From positions 1-64,000 of IMG/VR virus record IMGVR_UViG_3300037054_000044: 64,000 nt of DNA, one strand, 5' to 3'. The stretch comes from a virus. The notes under the pieces are model-generated. The model was given only the letters and a program-made list of their open reading frames with translations. It searched no databases and was not told where the DNA came from. Below are positions 4,142 to 64,000 of this stretch, one piece after another (position 1 is the stretch's first letter; the number at the start of each line of letters is the position of its first letter). Made by a program: the position numbers and the translations under genes.

Positions 4142-4726
4142 ATGAGACGATTAGATGGAAAACCAGCAAGTTATAAATACAGAAATTTGACTGGAAATAC
4201 TTTTGGAAAACTGACCGCACTTTATACTCTTACTAGAGAGGTAGGAGAGCGTAGGTTTTGGATGTGCCGATGTGAGTGTGGAGTAGAAAAACTAATAAAA
4301 GCGCACAACCTTACCAGTGGAGAAACCAATAGTTGTGGATGTGCAAAGTTAGCATCATCCAGAGCCAATATAGGAATTGCCCACTCAAAGGCTGTGAAGG
4401 AAGGCTCTGCATTTCGTCACTTGTTAGCAATGTACAAGAACAATGCAAAGACTAGAGGTTTTATTTGGGAACTGACAGCAGAAAAGTTCAAAGAGTTGAC
4501 TTCTTCTCCATGCTATTACACAGGAACAGTTCCTAGCAGCATTGTTAAGGCACAATCGGGAGAGGTGTATACGTACAACGGGATAGACCGTTTGGACAAC
4601 ACCAAAGGTTATACCTTAGAGAACTCTGTTGCATGCTGTGGAGAAGTAAACATGATGAAGAAAGCGCTTTCTAAAGAGAACTTCATCGAGTTGTGCAGAA
4701 AGATTACAGAGAGGTTTTCAAAATGA
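4142..4726 (+). CDS. HNH-type homing endonuclease
   Basis: The 194-residue product has an N-terminal zinc-knuckle domain (MCRCECG...TNSCGCAK) typical of phage HEG DNA-binding modules. A C-terminal nuclease-like part has YNGIDRLDNTKGYTLEN followed by CCGEVNMMK, matching the (D)R-N-GY-N-CC-CN pattern of this HEG group. Its relative at 61900-62436 has the same layout. The stop overlaps the ATG of the adaptor-like gene, so that gene can be read by re-initiation. Confidence 0.75.
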   Translation: MRRLDGKPASYKYRNLTGNTFGKLTALYTLTREVGERRFWMCRCECGVEKLIKAHNLTSGETNSCGCAKLASSRANIGIAHSKAVKEGSAFRHLLAMYKNNAKTRGFIWELTAEKFKELTSSPCYYTGTVPSSIVKAQSGEVYTYNGIDRLDNTKGYTLENSVACCGEVNMMKKALSKENFIELCRKITERFSK

Positions 4727-57268: not shown

Positions 57269-59236
57269 TTAGATTGGAATGTTGGCCGTAGCCACGGGAA
57301 CTGCATTGCCGTTCTCCATGGGAATCACATTGTTGAACGTCTGGAGGTTGGCGTTGAGTTTGCCCTTCTCTTCTGCTGAGTAAGAACGGAACTGGCTACG
57401 CGCACCATCGCAGAATACATAGCAACTACCCCCAGCAGAATACCGGGACAGGCCGACTGTGAGTTTCGTTTTGGGATCAAAGGACTGAGAAGTCTCAGCG
57501 AAGCCAACGGACTGCTCGTCGTATTCTGACTTTTTCATCTCTCCGAGTACGCTACGCCACATTAAAATCATCGAGTCGCAATCCTTGGCGACCTGACTGC
57601 TACCGTCAATATCATTGCTAGATATAATCAGTCCTTTCTCGATGCGTTTTGGCTGCAGGATACGAATCAACTTGATGCGATAATCTTTGGCGATTTTCGC
57701 AAACTGTTTACTGATTTGAGACAGGTGAACTGTGCGGTGCCCTTGGTTGCGCAGAGTATCATCCGCCAACCTCTGCACATTGTCAAACACAACCCATTGA
57801 ACGCCGTATCTCCTGATGCAGTCCCTAATCAACTTGAATACATCCTCAGGCTCCTTGACTAATGCCGGATAGGCGAAGTACAAGTCAGCACTACGGGATT
57901 GCTGTATCTCCCTAGCTTTTACCACAGCAGTCTTCAGTTCTGCCAGTTTAGTTTTAGACTCCTCTGTTCCCGGTGCAGTGATTGTGTCTTCAAAGCCTGT
58001 AACAAGGGAAACCCATTTTCGTGCGAGTCGAGCCGAAGTCATCTCCAGACAAACGAACAATCCGTCTTCTCCATAGGTTTTCACCATATGATCTAGGATG
58101 TTGAGTCCTAAAGTTGTCTTACCTACCTTCTCCGGGGCCACTATGTCTATGACATCCCCCGCTTCGAACCCCACTAGCTTATTCAGTTCAGGCCACGGGG
58201 AAATATAGGTTGGAGCCAAATCGGCTTTGCCATTCAATTCGTCCTCAAGTTGTTGTAAGGCATCTTTGGAGGAAGTGACCCCTGTTACATCAAAGAATAC
58301 CGCACGTCTCTTCAACTCTTCGAACCCTTCTACTGTGCCTCCACTTTGAAAATAAGCGTTGATGTCTTTGGTTCCCTTCGGCAATACAATTTTCAAGCAC
58401 TTCTCAATGCCAATACGGCTGGCGAGTTCCTGCGCTCCTTTGGTACCTGCTTGGTCGCTGTCATAGAGTATGTACACTTTAGGAGCCACACGATCAAGTA
58501 TTTCGATCCATGCTGCCTTGCGTACATTGGCTCCCGGCACTCCCACTACGTTATCCACACCATGGGACATTAAAGCCAGAGCATCTGCTTCTCCTTCTAC
58601 CATGATGATTTCTTTGCACTCTTCATCTAAGGCAGGGGCATTGTACAAACCTGCTTCATGACCGCTGGGGCAAGTGAAATCTTTTTCTGCAGGGGGAAGG
58701 GTTCGCATCTTAGCGAAAGTTACGTTGCCTTCGACTGACAAGTAGGGAATAACCAGTGCGCGTGTCTCCCCCGCTTTGTGGAAGTATACTTTCTCTTTTA
58801 AGCCCAACTTCTGCCGTTCGATAATCTCCTTGGTGAAACCGCGCACGTTAAGTAGATAGTCCATAGCCGAGGCATCCCCTAGAAGGGTAGCGTGGCAAAT
58901 GTCGGCATCTGGCAAAGCATCCTGCTTCTCTTTTTTCCCAGACCATTCGGCGCGGGAGTCCACATTTGCTATGCGATCTCCACAGTGTTCTTGCAGAGTC
59001 CTCAGGTTTCCTGTTTTTCCGCAACTGCCGTGATAGCAGAAAAATAACCCATCACGTGTGCTTTCCTCGGGATCATTGCAAGCCACGTAGAACTTGAACC
59101 CGCCTTTTTTGCAGAACGGGCAAGTCTCCACCTGCACCTGTCCACCTGCAGGTCCTTGCCAGTTCCACCCTTTTTTGGTTATATACTGGATTGTGGGGCT
59201 GTTCCTTAATTCTGCTGGGATTGCTTGACTTGGCAT
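57269..59236 (-). CDS. Bifunctional primase-helicase (T7 gp4-like)
   Basis: Primase part: zinc site CPFC...C-x4-C (CYHGSC), then TOPRIM MVEGEADALAL and YDSDQAG. Helicase part: Walker A APEKVGKTTLGLN, VCLEMTSARLARKW, Walker B WVVFDNVQRL, ILQPKRIE, and a DnaB-like SSQVAKDCD. It primes and unwinds DNA at the phage fork. Start at ATG 59236 is chosen; GTG 59242 is possible. It overlaps the upstream endonuclease by 31 nt. Confidence 0.9.
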   Translation of the reverse strand: MPSQAIPAELRNSPTIQYITKKGWNWQGPAGGQVQVETCPFCKKGGFKFYVACNDPEESTRDGLFFCYHGSCGKTGNLRTLQEHCGDRIANVDSRAEWSGKKEKQDALPDADICHATLLGDASAMDYLLNVRGFTKEIIERQKLGLKEKVYFHKAGETRALVIPYLSVEGNVTFAKMRTLPPAEKDFTCPSGHEAGLYNAPALDEECKEIIMVEGEADALALMSHGVDNVVGVPGANVRKAAWIEILDRVAPKVYILYDSDQAGTKGAQELASRIGIEKCLKIVLPKGTKDINAYFQSGGTVEGFEELKRRAVFFDVTGVTSSKDALQQLEDELNGKADLAPTYISPWPELNKLVGFEAGDVIDIVAPEKVGKTTLGLNILDHMVKTYGEDGLFVCLEMTSARLARKWVSLVTGFEDTITAPGTEESKTKLAELKTAVVKAREIQQSRSADLYFAYPALVKEPEDVFKLIRDCIRRYGVQWVVFDNVQRLADDTLRNQGHRTVHLSQISKQFAKIAKDYRIKLIRILQPKRIEKGLIISSNDIDGSSQVAKDCDSMILMWRSVLGEMKKSEYDEQSVGFAETSQSFDPKTKLTVGLSRYSAGGSCYVFCDGARSQFRSYSAEEKGKLNANLQTFNNVIPMENGNAVPVATANIPI

Positions 59237-59796
59237 TTCCACCTTCTCCTATTACGGTTGCTTTCTTTTCTGGTTACCCAGCGTACATTACCCGGTTCAT
59301 AGTGTCCGTCATTGTTCCTTCTGTCGAGTATGTAACCCTGAGGTTTGACACCAATTTCTTCAAAGAATTGCTCGAAACTGGTGAATAGAAACCTTATTCC
59401 GCGACCTCCATAGTTCTTCCAATCCTTACGCCTTGGATTAGTGCAGCGAGTTTGCGCATTCGTGTACGCTCTGTATTCTGGTGTGATTTTACCTCTACGA
59501 GTCTGTCCGTGTTTAAGCGGAGAGTGTCCTAAGATGAAAAACTTAGGCTGTCCCTTAGTGTAGCCGTTTGCGGTTTTTAATCCTGTAGCAATCTCTGTTT
59601 TACCACCGCATCCACACTGGCATAGACCTATGGGGATGTCAGGATTCAGGTTTTGTTTTGGAGGAGCAGCTTCCCAGCGGTAGGGTTTATGTCCAGACAG
59701 GAATACCTTAGGCGCTCCCTCTACTTGTCCCCGTTCCTTCCTTGTTTTTGCATAAACTCCCGTTTCTTTGCCGCATCCGCACTGGCATTGTGTCAT
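59206..59796 (-). CDS. HNH-type homing endonuclease with double zinc unit
   Basis: Two N-terminal C-x-C-GCG(K/G) units (CQCGCGKETG, CQCGCGGKTE) are followed by the GRGIRFLFTSFEQFF and LDRRNNDGHYEPGNVRWVTR nuclease core. It combines the zinc unit of the endonuclease VII-like gene at 42818 with the nuclease type of 51026 and 54451, which suggests module shuffling. GGAGGAACCC precedes the ATG. Confidence 0.82.
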   Translation of the reverse strand: MTQCQCGCGKETGVYAKTRKERGQVEGAPKVFLSGHKPYRWEAAPPKQNLNPDIPIGLCQCGCGGKTEIATGLKTANGYTKGQPKFFILGHSPLKHGQTRRGKITPEYRAYTNAQTRCTNPRRKDWKNYGGRGIRFLFTSFEQFFEEIGVKPQGYILDRRNNDGHYEPGNVRWVTRKESNRNRRRWKCQVKQSQQN

Positions 59797-59805
59797 GGGT
59801 TCCTC

Positions 59806-60120
59806 CTATTGAACCTTGCGTTCATTTGCTTGGCTGAACATCTTGCGCCCGATCTCGGTTAACTCGTAGACTCGGAACAGGCGGTTAGTCATAGCAAATA
59901 TGGTTGCTAGTTTGTCCTTGGTTGCTGGCTCCTCTGTGATCTCTTTGATGAGACCAAGTATCACCAGCTGCTCATTGTCCATCATAGTTCGCATGGCCTC
60001 GTGGTAATCGTTCACCGTGTCCAGTTTAGGGTCAGGCACGGCCTGAGAGAATGCTCCCAAGCCGTTTACCATGCTTTCCAGCAATGCCACTTGCTCTGCG
60101 TTTAGTTGCGGAATACTCAC
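59806..60120 (-). CDS. Hypothetical helical protein (104 aa)
   Basis: GTG 60120 overlaps the helicase stop and has GAGG 8 nt upstream. Entirely helical (QLVILGLIKEITEEP, IFAMTNRLFRVYELTEIGRK). Coupled to the SF2 helicase; a partner role is possible. Confidence 0.6.
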   Translation of the reverse strand: MSIPQLNAEQVALLESMVNGLGAFSQAVPDPKLDTVNDYHEAMRTMMDNEQLVILGLIKEITEEPATKDKLATIFAMTNRLFRVYELTEIGRKMFSQANERKVQ

Positions 60121-61886
60121 TTCTTTCGCCTCGCTTTCATCGTGTTGATGGCTACGCTTGCTTGTCCTGCAGTAATGCCCGTTTCCAAGTGGCACGTTGG
60201 ACACATCTTAGCAGACTGCTGACCGGGACACAAGCACTTTAGCAATGGACGGTTCCTGCTCAGTGACCTTAGTAGTTTCTTAGCAGGCTCACTGGCAGGG
60301 TACGTATGCCACTCTGCTTCGCGTGTAACCAGCTTCATTCGGTCGGGACGGCACCGCTGCATCACTTCATCTGCCGAGGCAAACGCCTCTTGAAGTGAGT
60401 TGTAGATGCCTAGTTGCTTGTCCACGTTCACTGCTGAGATTGATAGAACGTATTCGCCTAGCTCATTCTCAGCAATTGCCAAGCGTTCGTGCTTATGAGC
60501 GTAGAACATACCTTTGAGTTCCTGCTTCTCGGGGATTTGCAGAGTATAGCCCCCTGCGCTATCTGCCATCCATGCTAACTTGGAGAATTCTAAGACTTCT
60601 TCTCCGTAGGGCTTGGCAAACAAATCTACACTCTCTACGTATGCGTTTATTTTGGAGATATCAGTGAGTTGTGTGAAATCTATGCCGGGGAACTTTTCCT
60701 GCATAGCTTCCAACTTCTCTGCTGCATCAGTGAGTGATCCTCCTTGTAGATTTAACTCAGGACTCATCCCTAACAGCGATGGCAAAGTTACTAAACTGCA
60801 GCGTTTGTAGTTGTCCACCACGTCAATCACGGAGCAGTCCGTTTTGCCGTCCATAATACGTGTTCCACGTCCAACCATCTGCGTGTACAAAGAACCACTT
60901 TTAGTAGGCCGCGCAAGTACGATGCAAGCCACAGAAGGACTATCGAACCCTTCAGTGAGCAGCGCACAGTTGCACAGCACCTGTACCTTTCCAGATTCAA
61001 ACCAGTTCAACTTATCAGCGCGTTGGGGATCGTCCCCGTAGATGGGCTGCGCCATCACTCCGTTGCGTAGAAACATCTCCGCAAGGTCTTTGCCGTGCTG
61101 CACGTCCACAGTAAAGCACAGAGTCGGTCTGTTATTGGTATTCTCCTTCCATGCCTTGACTACCTGTAGATTACGTTCCGGTGTATTAACAGCCTCTGAA
61201 AGCTGCTCCGTGGCAAAGTCACCGGCAACAGTCTTTACTGCATCGAGGTTAGTCTGCGTGCCTACCCTAAAGCCTTTCAGTGGGCACAGGAAGCCTTCTT
61301 TTATGCCGCGCCGGATTGGGAAGCTGTAGACGATTTTGCTGAACACACTTTTCAGCGTCAGCAGATCGTCGTCGTCTAGTGTGTTGATTTGCTTTCCGCG
61401 TGCTTTGTTGCGCCTGCGCGGTGTGGCGGTGAACCCAACCAGCAATTTATCGCTAGCTGGCAGGAGAACACCTGAGTCCTCAAGAATGTTGAGGTAGCTC
61501 CCGCCTAAAACGTGGTGGCACTCATCTATTACGATTGTGCCGATGTCGTCCCAGAAGTGCTCTAAACGCTTGGAACCTGCGCGACCTACCGAGGCGTTGC
61601 ACGCGACTATTACGTCGCAGTCGGCCTCGGCATGGTGCCCTGCTTTCTCAAGTCCTACTTTGAGCGTGGGGTTCCAGTGTTGAATCTTGTCTACCGCTTG
61701 ATCCAGCAACTCACTGCGATGAGCAATGACCAGCATCTTCCCCTTGTTCAATCGCGCAGGAAGGTTGCTGAATACCACGGTCTTGCCCAGCCCTGTTGCC
61801 ATAACCACTAATTGATGGCGTACGCCTGCTTGCATGTTCTCTACGATAGCATCCAAACAGTCTTCTTGATATTTTCGTAGCTGCAC
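60117..61886 (-). CDS. SF2 DEAD/DEAH-type helicase
   Basis: 589 residues: QLRKYQEDCLDAI, Walker A VMATGLGKTVVF, DECHHV, GFTATPRR, then domain 2 YGDDPQRADKLNWFESG, NCALLTEGFDSP and QMVGRGTRIMDG. A C-terminal Cys cluster (CLCPGQQSAKMCPTCHLE) may bind zinc. It could be a replication or recombination helicase. Its N-terminus has a second, broken relative just upstream. Confidence 0.9.
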   Translation of the reverse strand: MQLRKYQEDCLDAIVENMQAGVRHQLVVMATGLGKTVVFSNLPARLNKGKMLVIAHRSELLDQAVDKIQHWNPTLKVGLEKAGHHAEADCDVIVACNASVGRAGSKRLEHFWDDIGTIVIDECHHVLGGSYLNILEDSGVLLPASDKLLVGFTATPRRRNKARGKQINTLDDDDLLTLKSVFSKIVYSFPIRRGIKEGFLCPLKGFRVGTQTNLDAVKTVAGDFATEQLSEAVNTPERNLQVVKAWKENTNNRPTLCFTVDVQHGKDLAEMFLRNGVMAQPIYGDDPQRADKLNWFESGKVQVLCNCALLTEGFDSPSVACIVLARPTKSGSLYTQMVGRGTRIMDGKTDCSVIDVVDNYKRCSLVTLPSLLGMSPELNLQGGSLTDAAEKLEAMQEKFPGIDFTQLTDISKINAYVESVDLFAKPYGEEVLEFSKLAWMADSAGGYTLQIPEKQELKGMFYAHKHERLAIAENELGEYVLSISAVNVDKQLGIYNSLQEAFASADEVMQRCRPDRMKLVTREAEWHTYPASEPAKKLLRSLSRNRPLLKCLCPGQQSAKMCPTCHLETGITAGQASVAINTMKARRKK

Positions 61887-61899
61887 AGGCGTCCTCCTT

Positions 61900-62436
61900 T
61901 CAGTTTGTTCTCATTTTGTTTAGCAGTTTTCCTATTTCCACAAACTGCTCGTATGTAAAGCGGTTTCCTCGGGTAAGGTTGCACACCGTGCAGCACACTA
62001 CACAATTCTCCGTGGAGTATCCCTTGGAATTGTCTTTGCGGTCTAGGTTGTAGTTGCCGCGTTTTCTTGTCCCTATGTTATGCTGCGCCCATGTTACAGT
62101 GGCGTTGCAGTAGTGACATGTTGATACCTTGGTGTATTCCAAGAACTGCTTGAAAGTTAGGGCACATGCATGTCCTTGTGTCGCGGACGACTTCCTCAGT
62201 TTGTGGTACAAGGATGCGTACGGCACTCCGCGTACTGCCTCCAAATTTAAACACTTGCAACTTCTTACAGGTTTGGTTTTGTTCCGCAGGCTATTTGCTC
62301 TTACTCCCTTATAATTACCGCAGTCACATAAGCATAACCACCATCTCCCTGCCCCTAAAGACTGTAACTCTGCGGTTACTAGTAGCCTGCCGAAACGTTC
62401 GCCCAGCAAGTCATTTCCTTTACGGCCAACTTTCAT
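61900..62436 (-). CDS. HNH-type homing endonuclease in helicase gene
   Basis: N-terminal GERFGRLLV and CLCDCGNYKG...SCKCLN zinc knuckles, then CHYCNATV, YNLDRKDNSKGYSTENC and CCTVCNLTRGN. Same family as 4142-4726. ATG 62436 overlaps the stop of a 40-residue helicase stub, and the gene ends 13 nt before the full helicase start. Confidence 0.8.
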   Translation of the reverse strand: MKVGRKGNDLLGERFGRLLVTAELQSLGAGRWWLCLCDCGNYKGVRANSLRNKTKPVRSCKCLNLEAVRGVPYASLYHKLRKSSATQGHACALTFKQFLEYTKVSTCHYCNATVTWAQHNIGTRKRGNYNLDRKDNSKGYSTENCVVCCTVCNLTRGNRFTYEQFVEIGKLLNKMRTN

Positions 62437-62555
62437 AGTTTCGCCTTGCCAATTCCCGTGGCGGCTACGACGAGTTGCTGGTAGCAACCTGCCAAGTATT
62501 CGTTGCGGATTGATTCCAAGCATTCTACTTGGCGTGGGCGTAGCGATAGAGCCAT
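62433..62555 (-). pseudogene. N-terminal helicase stub ending at Walker A
   Basis: AAAGGAGG precedes the ATG. The 40-residue product has LRPRQVECLESIRNEYLAG and QLVVAATGIGKAKL, then a stop. It parallels the start of the full helicase downstream (QLVVMATGLGKT) and breaks exactly at the Walker A Lys/Thr. It is best explained as a homing endonuclease insertion into a helicase gene. Confidence 0.75.
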
Positions 62556-62567
62556 GGTAACCTCCTT

Positions 62568-63038
62568 TCAGTTTTTAATCCACCCAACACCTTTGCATTG
62601 TGGGCATTGCTTTCCTGTTACTTTTTCTGGGCGCTCCCAGACTCCTTCAGTCTCATCACTTTCCCACTCTTGATAATCGGAAAACTCTAAAGGTGTCCTT
62701 GGAGGGAACCCTTTAACCCAGCCCTTTACTGGTTTGAAGTTTGGGTCTGTGTTGTCGTACTCTTTTGGGTATGCAGGGGTGTACTCTTTGGTTATAGGCG
62801 AAACTGTTTCGCCTCTGCTGTGATTACCTCCATCGAGCATATACTGCACTGCACGTATAGAGCGTCCTAAATGTTTTTCACAAAACTCAGTTTTGGTTTT
62901 GCATCCTCGTATTGTTTCTTGTGGTTGAAGTTTTTCAAACTCTTTCCACAGGTTTTTGATGTCTGTTTTGTGTGCTGCAAGTTTAGCGAACGCTGCTACC
63001 ACTTTCTCTGCTAAGGCTTCTCTTTTTTTCTGGTCCAC
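62568..63038 (-). CDS. Hypothetical protein with C-terminal zinc knuckle (156 aa)
   Basis: GTG 63038 within the end of the Mom-like gene, with CGAGG upstream. Helical N-terminus (KREALAEKVVAAFAKLAAHK), LGRSIRAVQYML like a DNA-binding helix, and a final CPQCKGVGWI. Not recognised. Confidence 0.55.
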   Translation of the reverse strand: MDQKKREALAEKVVAAFAKLAAHKTDIKNLWKEFEKLQPQETIRGCKTKTEFCEKHLGRSIRAVQYMLDGGNHSRGETVSPITKEYTPAYPKEYDNTDPNFKPVKGWVKGFPPRTPLEFSDYQEWESDETEGVWERPEKVTGKQCPQCKGVGWIKN

Positions 63039-63891
63039 CTTCACCTCGTGGTATCTCGTAGTACTCCATACCCTCGAACAAATCTTTAATATGGAGAATT
63101 TTTCCTTCTTCCTTTTCAAGTGTAGCTGCTCCGCTGGCAATAGCCGCTCGCAATCTAACTGACAAAGAAGTTAAATACTCAGGAGTTTTAATAACGTACA
63201 CCAATCGCCCCGTTGCTCGTTCTGTCCAGCATATAGCCCTAGGTTTTTCAAGGGAGACTGCTGTTTTCCAATCATGCAGTACTTTAGGGTCTAATTCACT
63301 TTCAGAGCGTACTCGGAAGTTTTGGTACTGATCCAAGTTGCGTATAGGAAGACGCCTGCCCTTCTTAAAAGTTTTACCATCTACGGTGAAGTCTTTTTGC
63401 ATGATAGCGGCTCTAGTGCTTCCAGCCTCTTTGACCAGATGAAAACCGCTAGCACAGTAGATTAGCCCTGTATGTTTACCGTCTGGGTGCTCAGGTCGTT
63501 TTTGATTGGGGTCAGCATAGGATATTACTCTTTCTACTCCCAAAGTAGCTAGTTTTTGAAGCATTCTCCCTAAGAGGAAACTTTCGCTGTTCTTTGGTAA
63601 CTCATCCAGTAGCACTAGCCGTCGCAACTCAACTGCAATAACACCCGGACGAGTCTCTTGTTTGGAAGCAGAGTATTCTCCGTATTTTCTTTCTGTTTGA
63701 GTCTGTCCGGGCATTCCAAAAATGGCTGCTCCCACTTGTTTTTGAAAGTCATCTTTTAGAACCACCTCAAAAGACATGAAAGGCGTTATGCCTTTTACAG
63801 AGTGGGAGTAATGGTGCTCCTCTACAAACTTCCTGATGTCTCCCATGGAAGTGCAAGGGCGTATCCATAGGTTTTCTAGTTCAACAGTCAC
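62983..63891 (-). CDS. Mom-like DNA modification protein
   Basis: Residues 1-170 match the GNAT-like Mom fold: EEHHYSHSVKGITPFMSFEV, GAAIFGMPGQT, AVELRRLVLLDELPKNSESF, ISYADPNQK, HTGLIYCASGFHLVKE. Phage Mu Mom modifies adenine in DNA and protects it from restriction. The C-terminal 130 residues are extra. It is the first coding gene of the - strand block here. Assignment is by motif pattern; other GNAT functions are possible. Confidence 0.65.
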   Translation of the reverse strand: MTVELENLWIRPCTSMGDIRKFVEEHHYSHSVKGITPFMSFEVVLKDDFQKQVGAAIFGMPGQTQTERKYGEYSASKQETRPGVIAVELRRLVLLDELPKNSESFLLGRMLQKLATLGVERVISYADPNQKRPEHPDGKHTGLIYCASGFHLVKEAGSTRAAIMQKDFTVDGKTFKKGRRLPIRNLDQYQNFRVRSESELDPKVLHDWKTAVSLEKPRAICWTERATGRLVYVIKTPEYLTSLSVRLRAAIASGAATLEKEEGKILHIKDLFEGMEYYEIPRGEGGPEKKRSLSRESGSSVR

Positions 63892-63911
63892 GTTTTTCCT
63901 TTCTTTGAAAA

Positions 63912-63983
63912 TGGAGCGGGGTGGTCGGTTCGATACGCCATCTCCTGACGGGTAGTCAGGTGTCCTGCTTAGACGAACCCCGC
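63912..63983 (-). tRNA. tRNA-Gly-like element, imperfect T stem
   Basis: The 72 nt with encoded CCA: acceptor GCGGGGT/ACCCCGC, discriminator T as in bacterial tRNA-Gly, D arm GTC/GAC, and a perfect anticodon stem CCTGA/TCAGG with loop CTACCCG. U33 gives anticodon ACC, rare for Gly in bacteria. The T stem keeps only two pairs although the loop holds TCGA. Probably a degenerate or non-standard tRNA. Confidence 0.45.
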
Positions 63984-63989
63984 ATATTG

Positions 63990-63995
63990 ATTATA
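63990..63995 (-). promoter_or_regulatory. Consensus -10 box upstream of tRNA-like element
   Basis: TATAAT on the - strand, 6 nt before the tRNA-like 5' end. The -35 would lie outside the window. It may start the whole - strand block. Confidence 0.45.
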
Positions 63996-64000
63996 CAGCC

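Follow-up and report, generated by a model that had tools for sequence, protein, structure and literature searches.

A PacI-like HNH endonuclease gene between a helicase stub and a chimeric helicase gene in a virus genome: a homing endonuclease that probably brings along a replacement for the gene end it cuts off

Accounts of free-standing homing endonucleases usually place them between genes, since they cannot splice themselves out. In phages, free-standing homing endonuclease genes (HEGs) have so far been reported from between genes or as inserts that split a gene, mobE in Aeh1 nrdA and mobA in T4 gene 60 being examples of the latter (PMC2988022). F-CphI, next to psbA, works together with an intron in collaborative homing (PMC6083498). 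In fungal mitochondria, mobile ORFs (mORFs) carry a foreign gene end with them, at atp6 in Allomyces and at atp6, atp9, cox2 and nad3 in Glomus (PMC3630166). No report of a phage HEG accompanied by a duplicated end of its target gene was found in open-access papers.

The locus described here lies in the window, the whole stretch of 64,000 nucleotides analysed, which covers positions 1-64000 of a virus record 85,205 bases long. Its features are as follows:

62561..62573 (-): copy 1 of a 13-nt repeat, AACTGAAAGGAGG, forming the Shine-Dalgarno sequence of the stub
62433..62555 (-): helicase stub, comprising the first 37-38 codons of a putatively resident helicase of L002/L086 type, through the Walker A GKA, plus KL and a stop codon
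61900..62436 (-): predicted PacI-like HNH endonuclease gene, 178 aa, assigned by PHROG, profile, fold and motifs
61893..61905 (-): copy 2 of the repeat, AACTGAAAGGAGG, containing the HEG stop codon and the Shine-Dalgarno sequence of the full helicase
60117..61886 (-): complete chimeric SF2 helicase, 589 aa, assigned by Pfam, segment identity, trees and max-chi
60906..61886 (-): putatively foreign front half of that helicase (the patch), residues about 1-327, of the L085/L084 lineage
60720..60905 (-): zone of lineage change, residues about 328-389, delimited by max-chi breakpoints
60117..60719 (-): putatively resident rear half of the helicase, of the L002/L086 lineage

The stub starts with ATG at 62555, is translated as MALSLRPRQVECLESIRNEYLAGCYQQLVVAATGIGKAKL and ends in the codons GGC AAG GCG AAA CTA TGA. 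The preliminary description gave it 40 residues ending at ATGIGK; the length and location stand, but the stub extends three residues (AKL) beyond that motif. The ATG of the HEG at 62436 lies inside CTATGA and overlaps the stub TGA (an ATGA overlap), confirming that the endonuclease starts on the stop codon of the stub. The HEG stops at 61900, its stop codon falling within the second AACTGAAAGGAGG copy, and the full helicase begins 13 nt further on, as had been stated, with a GTG at 61886; it includes QLVVMATGLGKT and has ResIII and Helicase_C domains (Pfam). Exact matches to AACTGAAAGGAGG in the window are limited to these two, and the repeat is longer at the two helicase starts than a Shine-Dalgarno match requires.

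The stub was aligned with the intact, HEG-less helicases of two other IMG/VR viruses (L002 and L086), which start LELRPRQ(I/N)ECLDSIRNEYLAG(T/V)YQQLVVAATGIGKAVI. It is 86% identical to both of these N-termini and 47% identical to the adjacent full helicase, and its homology with the intact helicases stops at the GCG (Ala) codon after the Walker A lysine. The HEG-less relatives thus bear out the proposed position of the endonuclease at the Walker A coding site of a resident helicase; in them the stub sequence is the front of an SF2 helicase gene and was not found as a separate intact gene. By BLOSUM62 the stub scores 164 against the front of the L002 helicase and 77 against its own downstream helicase; the 99% point of control cross-locus pairings is 46, so the likeness is not due to chance. 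Codon differences between stub and L002 (13 synonymous, 3 nonsynonymous) resemble those between L002 and L086 (10 synonymous, 2 nonsynonymous), which argues that until recently the stub evolved as a piece of a functional gene. The stub and the starts of L002:4998-6845 and L086:4998-6845 have in common an invariant 20-nt run, TACCAGCAACTCGTCGTAGC, while most adjoining codons differ synonymously.

The full helicase is of mixed descent. Residues 1-36 are about 50% identical to L002 and 47% to the stub; residues 37-345 are 72% identical to L084, 65% to L085 and 52% to L002; and residues 355-589 are 72% identical to L084, 70% to L002, 69% to L086 and 51% to L085, so that the closeness of L085 and L002 to the window helicase flips between the front and rear halves. 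L002 and L086 are 94% identical to each other in the stub region, 87% in the rear half and 81% in the front half; the divergence of the window sequence from this pair is compatible with theirs for the stub (86%) and the rear half (70%), and not for the front half (52% vs 81%). Among informative sites, at which the window helicase matches either L085 or L002 but not both, the L085:L002 ratio is 84:44 in the left part and 11:54 in the right part (max-chi 40.9, 0/1000 permutations), whereas a control triple gave no signal (680/1000). Breakpoints were placed at residue 389 with the L085/L002 pair and at residue 328 with L085/L086 (0/1000 permutations). In the front-half tree the window helicase forms a fully supported group with L084 and L085; in the rear-half tree L002, L086 and L084 lie near one another with L085 farther off, the fork being unresolved. 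Together, identities, max-chi and trees place the stub and rear half in one lineage (B, that of L002 and L086) and the HEG-side front in another (A, that of L085 and L084), joined in phase within a single 589-codon frame that changes lineage at about residues 328-389. On sequence comparison, the resident gene is read as having retained the stub and the rear half, the foreign front half having come in beside the nuclease. The view that recombination restored a full gene after the endonuclease holds as far as the gene is full, but what was imported appears to be a foreign front half on a resident rear half, and the N-terminus is not the stub's own rebuilt, as had been supposed. The L084 helicase is a similar chimera with an A-type front and a B-type rear; it has no stub, and a different, Endo VII-like HEG overlaps its start.

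The HEG product was assigned to the HNH endonucleases of PHROG 374 (E 3e-17). A profile built with 26 homologues matched the HNH restriction enzyme PacI (3ldy, E 1.5e-10), and with an AlphaFold2 model (pLDDT 89.6) PacI was the sole significant structural match in the PDB (E 8e-7). Profile and structure thus agree on an HNH/beta-beta-alpha-Me fold with zinc CxxC motifs; CxxC, YNLDRKDNxxGY and CCxxCN are conserved among the 26 homologues. In the Pfam search the HEG was not recognised and no Hint match was found. The gene is optional at the helicase 5' end, being absent in L002, L086 and L085 and present in the window, L091 and L380. The product, 178 aa long, is best read as a presumably mobile, free-standing homing endonuclease of the HNH class with a PacI-like fold.

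The same helicase end is a hot spot for HEGs in many phages. Next to the 5' end of these helicase genes, Endo VII-like HEGs occur in L084, L087, L092, L093 and L381, and other HNH proteins, judged by eye from sequence, in L111, L376/L377 and L379. At L095:3840-6641 a helicase of the same family carries an in-frame Hint-LAGLIDADG intein at Walker A GK|T, at most 3 bp from the insertion point of the window HEG; splicing elements, too, thus use the helicase Walker A as a homing site. From the insertion point and this neighbouring intein, the nuclease would be expected to cut at a P-loop codon, the presumed cut region being near GGCAAGGCG in the Walker A of an L002/L086-type helicase.

Recurrence of the arrangement was assessed in 253 non-redundant HNH-type HEG loci from IMG/VR by scoring protein-level similarity between stretches touching both ends of the HEG. 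A score of at least 60 was reached by 9/253 loci, against about 0.025 expected from 10,000 cross-locus pairings. The match at L298 is of low complexity and was judged spurious, so 8/9 loci were taken as real; L240 and L349, both among them, concern the same gene. Curation yielded about ten cases with a replaced 5' or 3' gene end. In the N-type the order is stub, HEG, complete gene: this applies to the window helicase, NinB/DUF1367 (L064), a calcineurin-like phosphoesterase (L191, with an ATGA overlap as in the window), the terminase large subunit (L265) and a RecB/Cas4-like gene (L059, by eye), where stub and HEG share one fused reading frame. In the C-type a complete gene is followed by the HEG and a C-terminal remnant: L217, L222 (SbcC-like, by eye), L240/L349, L290 (ATP-dependent DNA ligase), L185 (MazG-like, by eye, with the remnant fused to the HEG C-terminus) and L359. 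The complete gene begins -17 to +13 nt from the HEG stop in the N-type (5/5), and the remnant begins -42 to +13 nt from it in the C-type (6/6). With scores of 44-49, around or under the 99% control point, the short cases L059, L185, L191 and L359 are weaker, resting on exact abutment and frame. Candidates L280, L245, L288, L298, L326, L264, L306, L042 and L033 were dropped as GC-rich, low-complexity matches, and L228 in the duplication scan was a tandem HEG. Cultured phages gave no call of resident or foreign copy in the other cases because the relatives were too distant (<52% identity). A DNA-level search of cultured phages with the window region gave no match, and a scan of bacterial genomes found no member of the close helicase group.

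Among the known systems the fungal mORFs are the nearest. In both, the HEG is inserted close to one end of a gene, the resident gene has a foreign version of that end joined to it in phase, and the native end is left as a remnant; in the window, too, the remnant (the stub) is nearer to relatives than the active copy is. The mORFs replace a C-terminus and encode a LAGLIDADG or GIY-YIG nuclease, whereas in the window the N-terminal half is replaced, the nuclease is HNH/PacI-like and the genome is that of a phage. The C-type phage loci match the mORFs except in nuclease family, and the N-type is their mirror image. The window element works like an mORF and is not filed as one, because of the replaced N-terminus and the HNH nuclease. 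With the T4 seg/mob genes (PMC2988022) and F-CphI (PMC6083498) the locus shares an HEG beside its presumed target gene and a presumed site that coincides with one occupied by a splicing element in relatives (the L095 intein in this case). The known free-standing HEGs differ in cutting at a distance and in leaving the neighbouring coding sequence whole, with no stub. The F-CphI type differs further in that the window locus is without intron or intein: no group I intron was found (no Rfam match in 60000-64000), and the helicase frame aligns without a splicing insertion. Like mobE and mobA, the HEG sits within a functionally critical coding region; their targets, however, stay as two working pieces, whereas here a front piece lies upstream and a full-length gene follows the HEG. 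P-loop inteins such as that of L095 share the insertion at Walker A GK|T, but the window HEG has no splicing domain or Hint match and lies in another frame, the stub has its own stop, and the frame would have been rescued by replacement and not by removal.

The account judged probable is that the HEG can persist inside coding sequence because a patch for the severed gene end comes with it. It is based on the origin of the stub, the insertion point, the chimera, the HNH fold and the recurrence at other genes, from which we infer P-loop cleavage, the order and direction of events, immunity and a role of the stub as a homology arm. Briefly, the HEG would at the outset lie directly against the 5' end of a lineage A helicase gene, and would cut the Walker A coding sequence of an HEG-less lineage B helicase in another phage. 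Right of the break, repair would proceed through helicase-body homology, copying the HEG and the lineage A front into place so that this front continues in frame into the resident rear half; left of the break, the resident first 37 codons would be joined to the HEG leader and remain as a stub, the outcome being stub, HEG and intact hybrid helicase. The simplest form would be one-sided homologous repair, with gene-body homology on one side and non-homologous joining at the break, so that the HEG arrives along with the foreign gene end, with a remnant staying behind. One-sided events that involve illegitimate joining at microhomologies have been recorded in T4 intron homing (PMC2988022). The patch has GLGKT in place of GIGKA, and this sequence difference would probably make it immune to cutting. 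In later transfers the stub could act as a left homology arm; with homology restored on both sides, HEG and patch could then move by ordinary homing.

The window HEG family adjoins the helicase 5' end in L091 and L380 with the stub absent, the donor state expected by the patch model. No lineage A donor adjoining this exact HEG was found, which counts against that model. The L084 chimera, with its different HEG and no stub, means that the hybrid helicase could predate the HEG insertion and have been captured whole. It also lends weight to an unlikely alternative in two steps, in which the HEG killed the resident helicase and a later mosaic exchange by chance placed a complete helicase behind it: mosaicism is common in phages, and the 13-nt repeat at both helicase starts could be an exchange junction. 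Repeated accident, however, would hardly give joins as tight as those of the N-type and C-type loci, and in the window the foreign part is the front half only.

The stub and full copy, lying head to tail behind the same Shine-Dalgarno sequence, could also suggest a tandem helicase duplication in a single phage, the upstream copy then receiving the HEG and decaying. This was rejected as very improbable, because the stub is nearer to the helicases of other phages than to its neighbour (86% vs 47%) and, with 3 nonsynonymous codon differences to L002, is undecayed. Only slightly less improbable is that the stub is translated as a short leader and that its stop codon provides translational coupling to the HEG, the helicase history being incidental. 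The ATGA overlaps in the window and L191 and the in-frame fusion in L059 fit such coupling, which is compatible with the patch model but no substitute for it, as a helicase N-terminus ending at Walker A and the full genes after the HEG would be left unexplained. The window and most of its relatives are metagenome viral contigs, so an assembly artefact or chance similarity was considered; recurrence on independent contigs and at other genes, far above the cross-locus expectation and with tight joins, led to its rejection as the least probable explanation of all.

Under the patch model, the helicase would remain whole despite the HEG because a foreign replacement for the severed part follows it, and carrying that patch would allow an HEG to occupy a critical coding site with neither intron nor intein. 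The chances seem about even that patch-carrying is a third general way, beside introns and inteins, for free-standing phage HEGs of several HNH types to reside in essential coding sequence, that the remnant as homology arm makes HEG and patch a self-contained mobile unit, and that hybrid replication and packaging proteins arise repeatedly in this manner. Patch-carrying HEGs would explain how such genes reach critical coding sites, the short orphan ORFs resembling gene ends beside phage nucleases, and the origin of hybrid helicases, terminases and ligases; the architecture would also directly predict cleavage sites for many uncharacterised HNH nucleases.

Further HEGs and a possible modification gene were noted in these genomes. 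A second PHROG 374 HEG lies at 59206-59796 (-) in the window, between a conserved small gene and a primase/helicase; a different HNH gene occupies the matching place in L084 (L084:3525-4022), making this another HEG hot spot. A further relative of the helicase-associated HEG (35% identity) is found at 4175-4702 (+) of the window, and another (50% identity) at a different gene boundary in L002 (L002:2078-2605), the helicase of which is without an HEG. Two genes upstream of the stub, at 62983-63891 (-), is a gene for a Mom-family protein (PF25680, E 9e-16), possibly a DNA modification gene.
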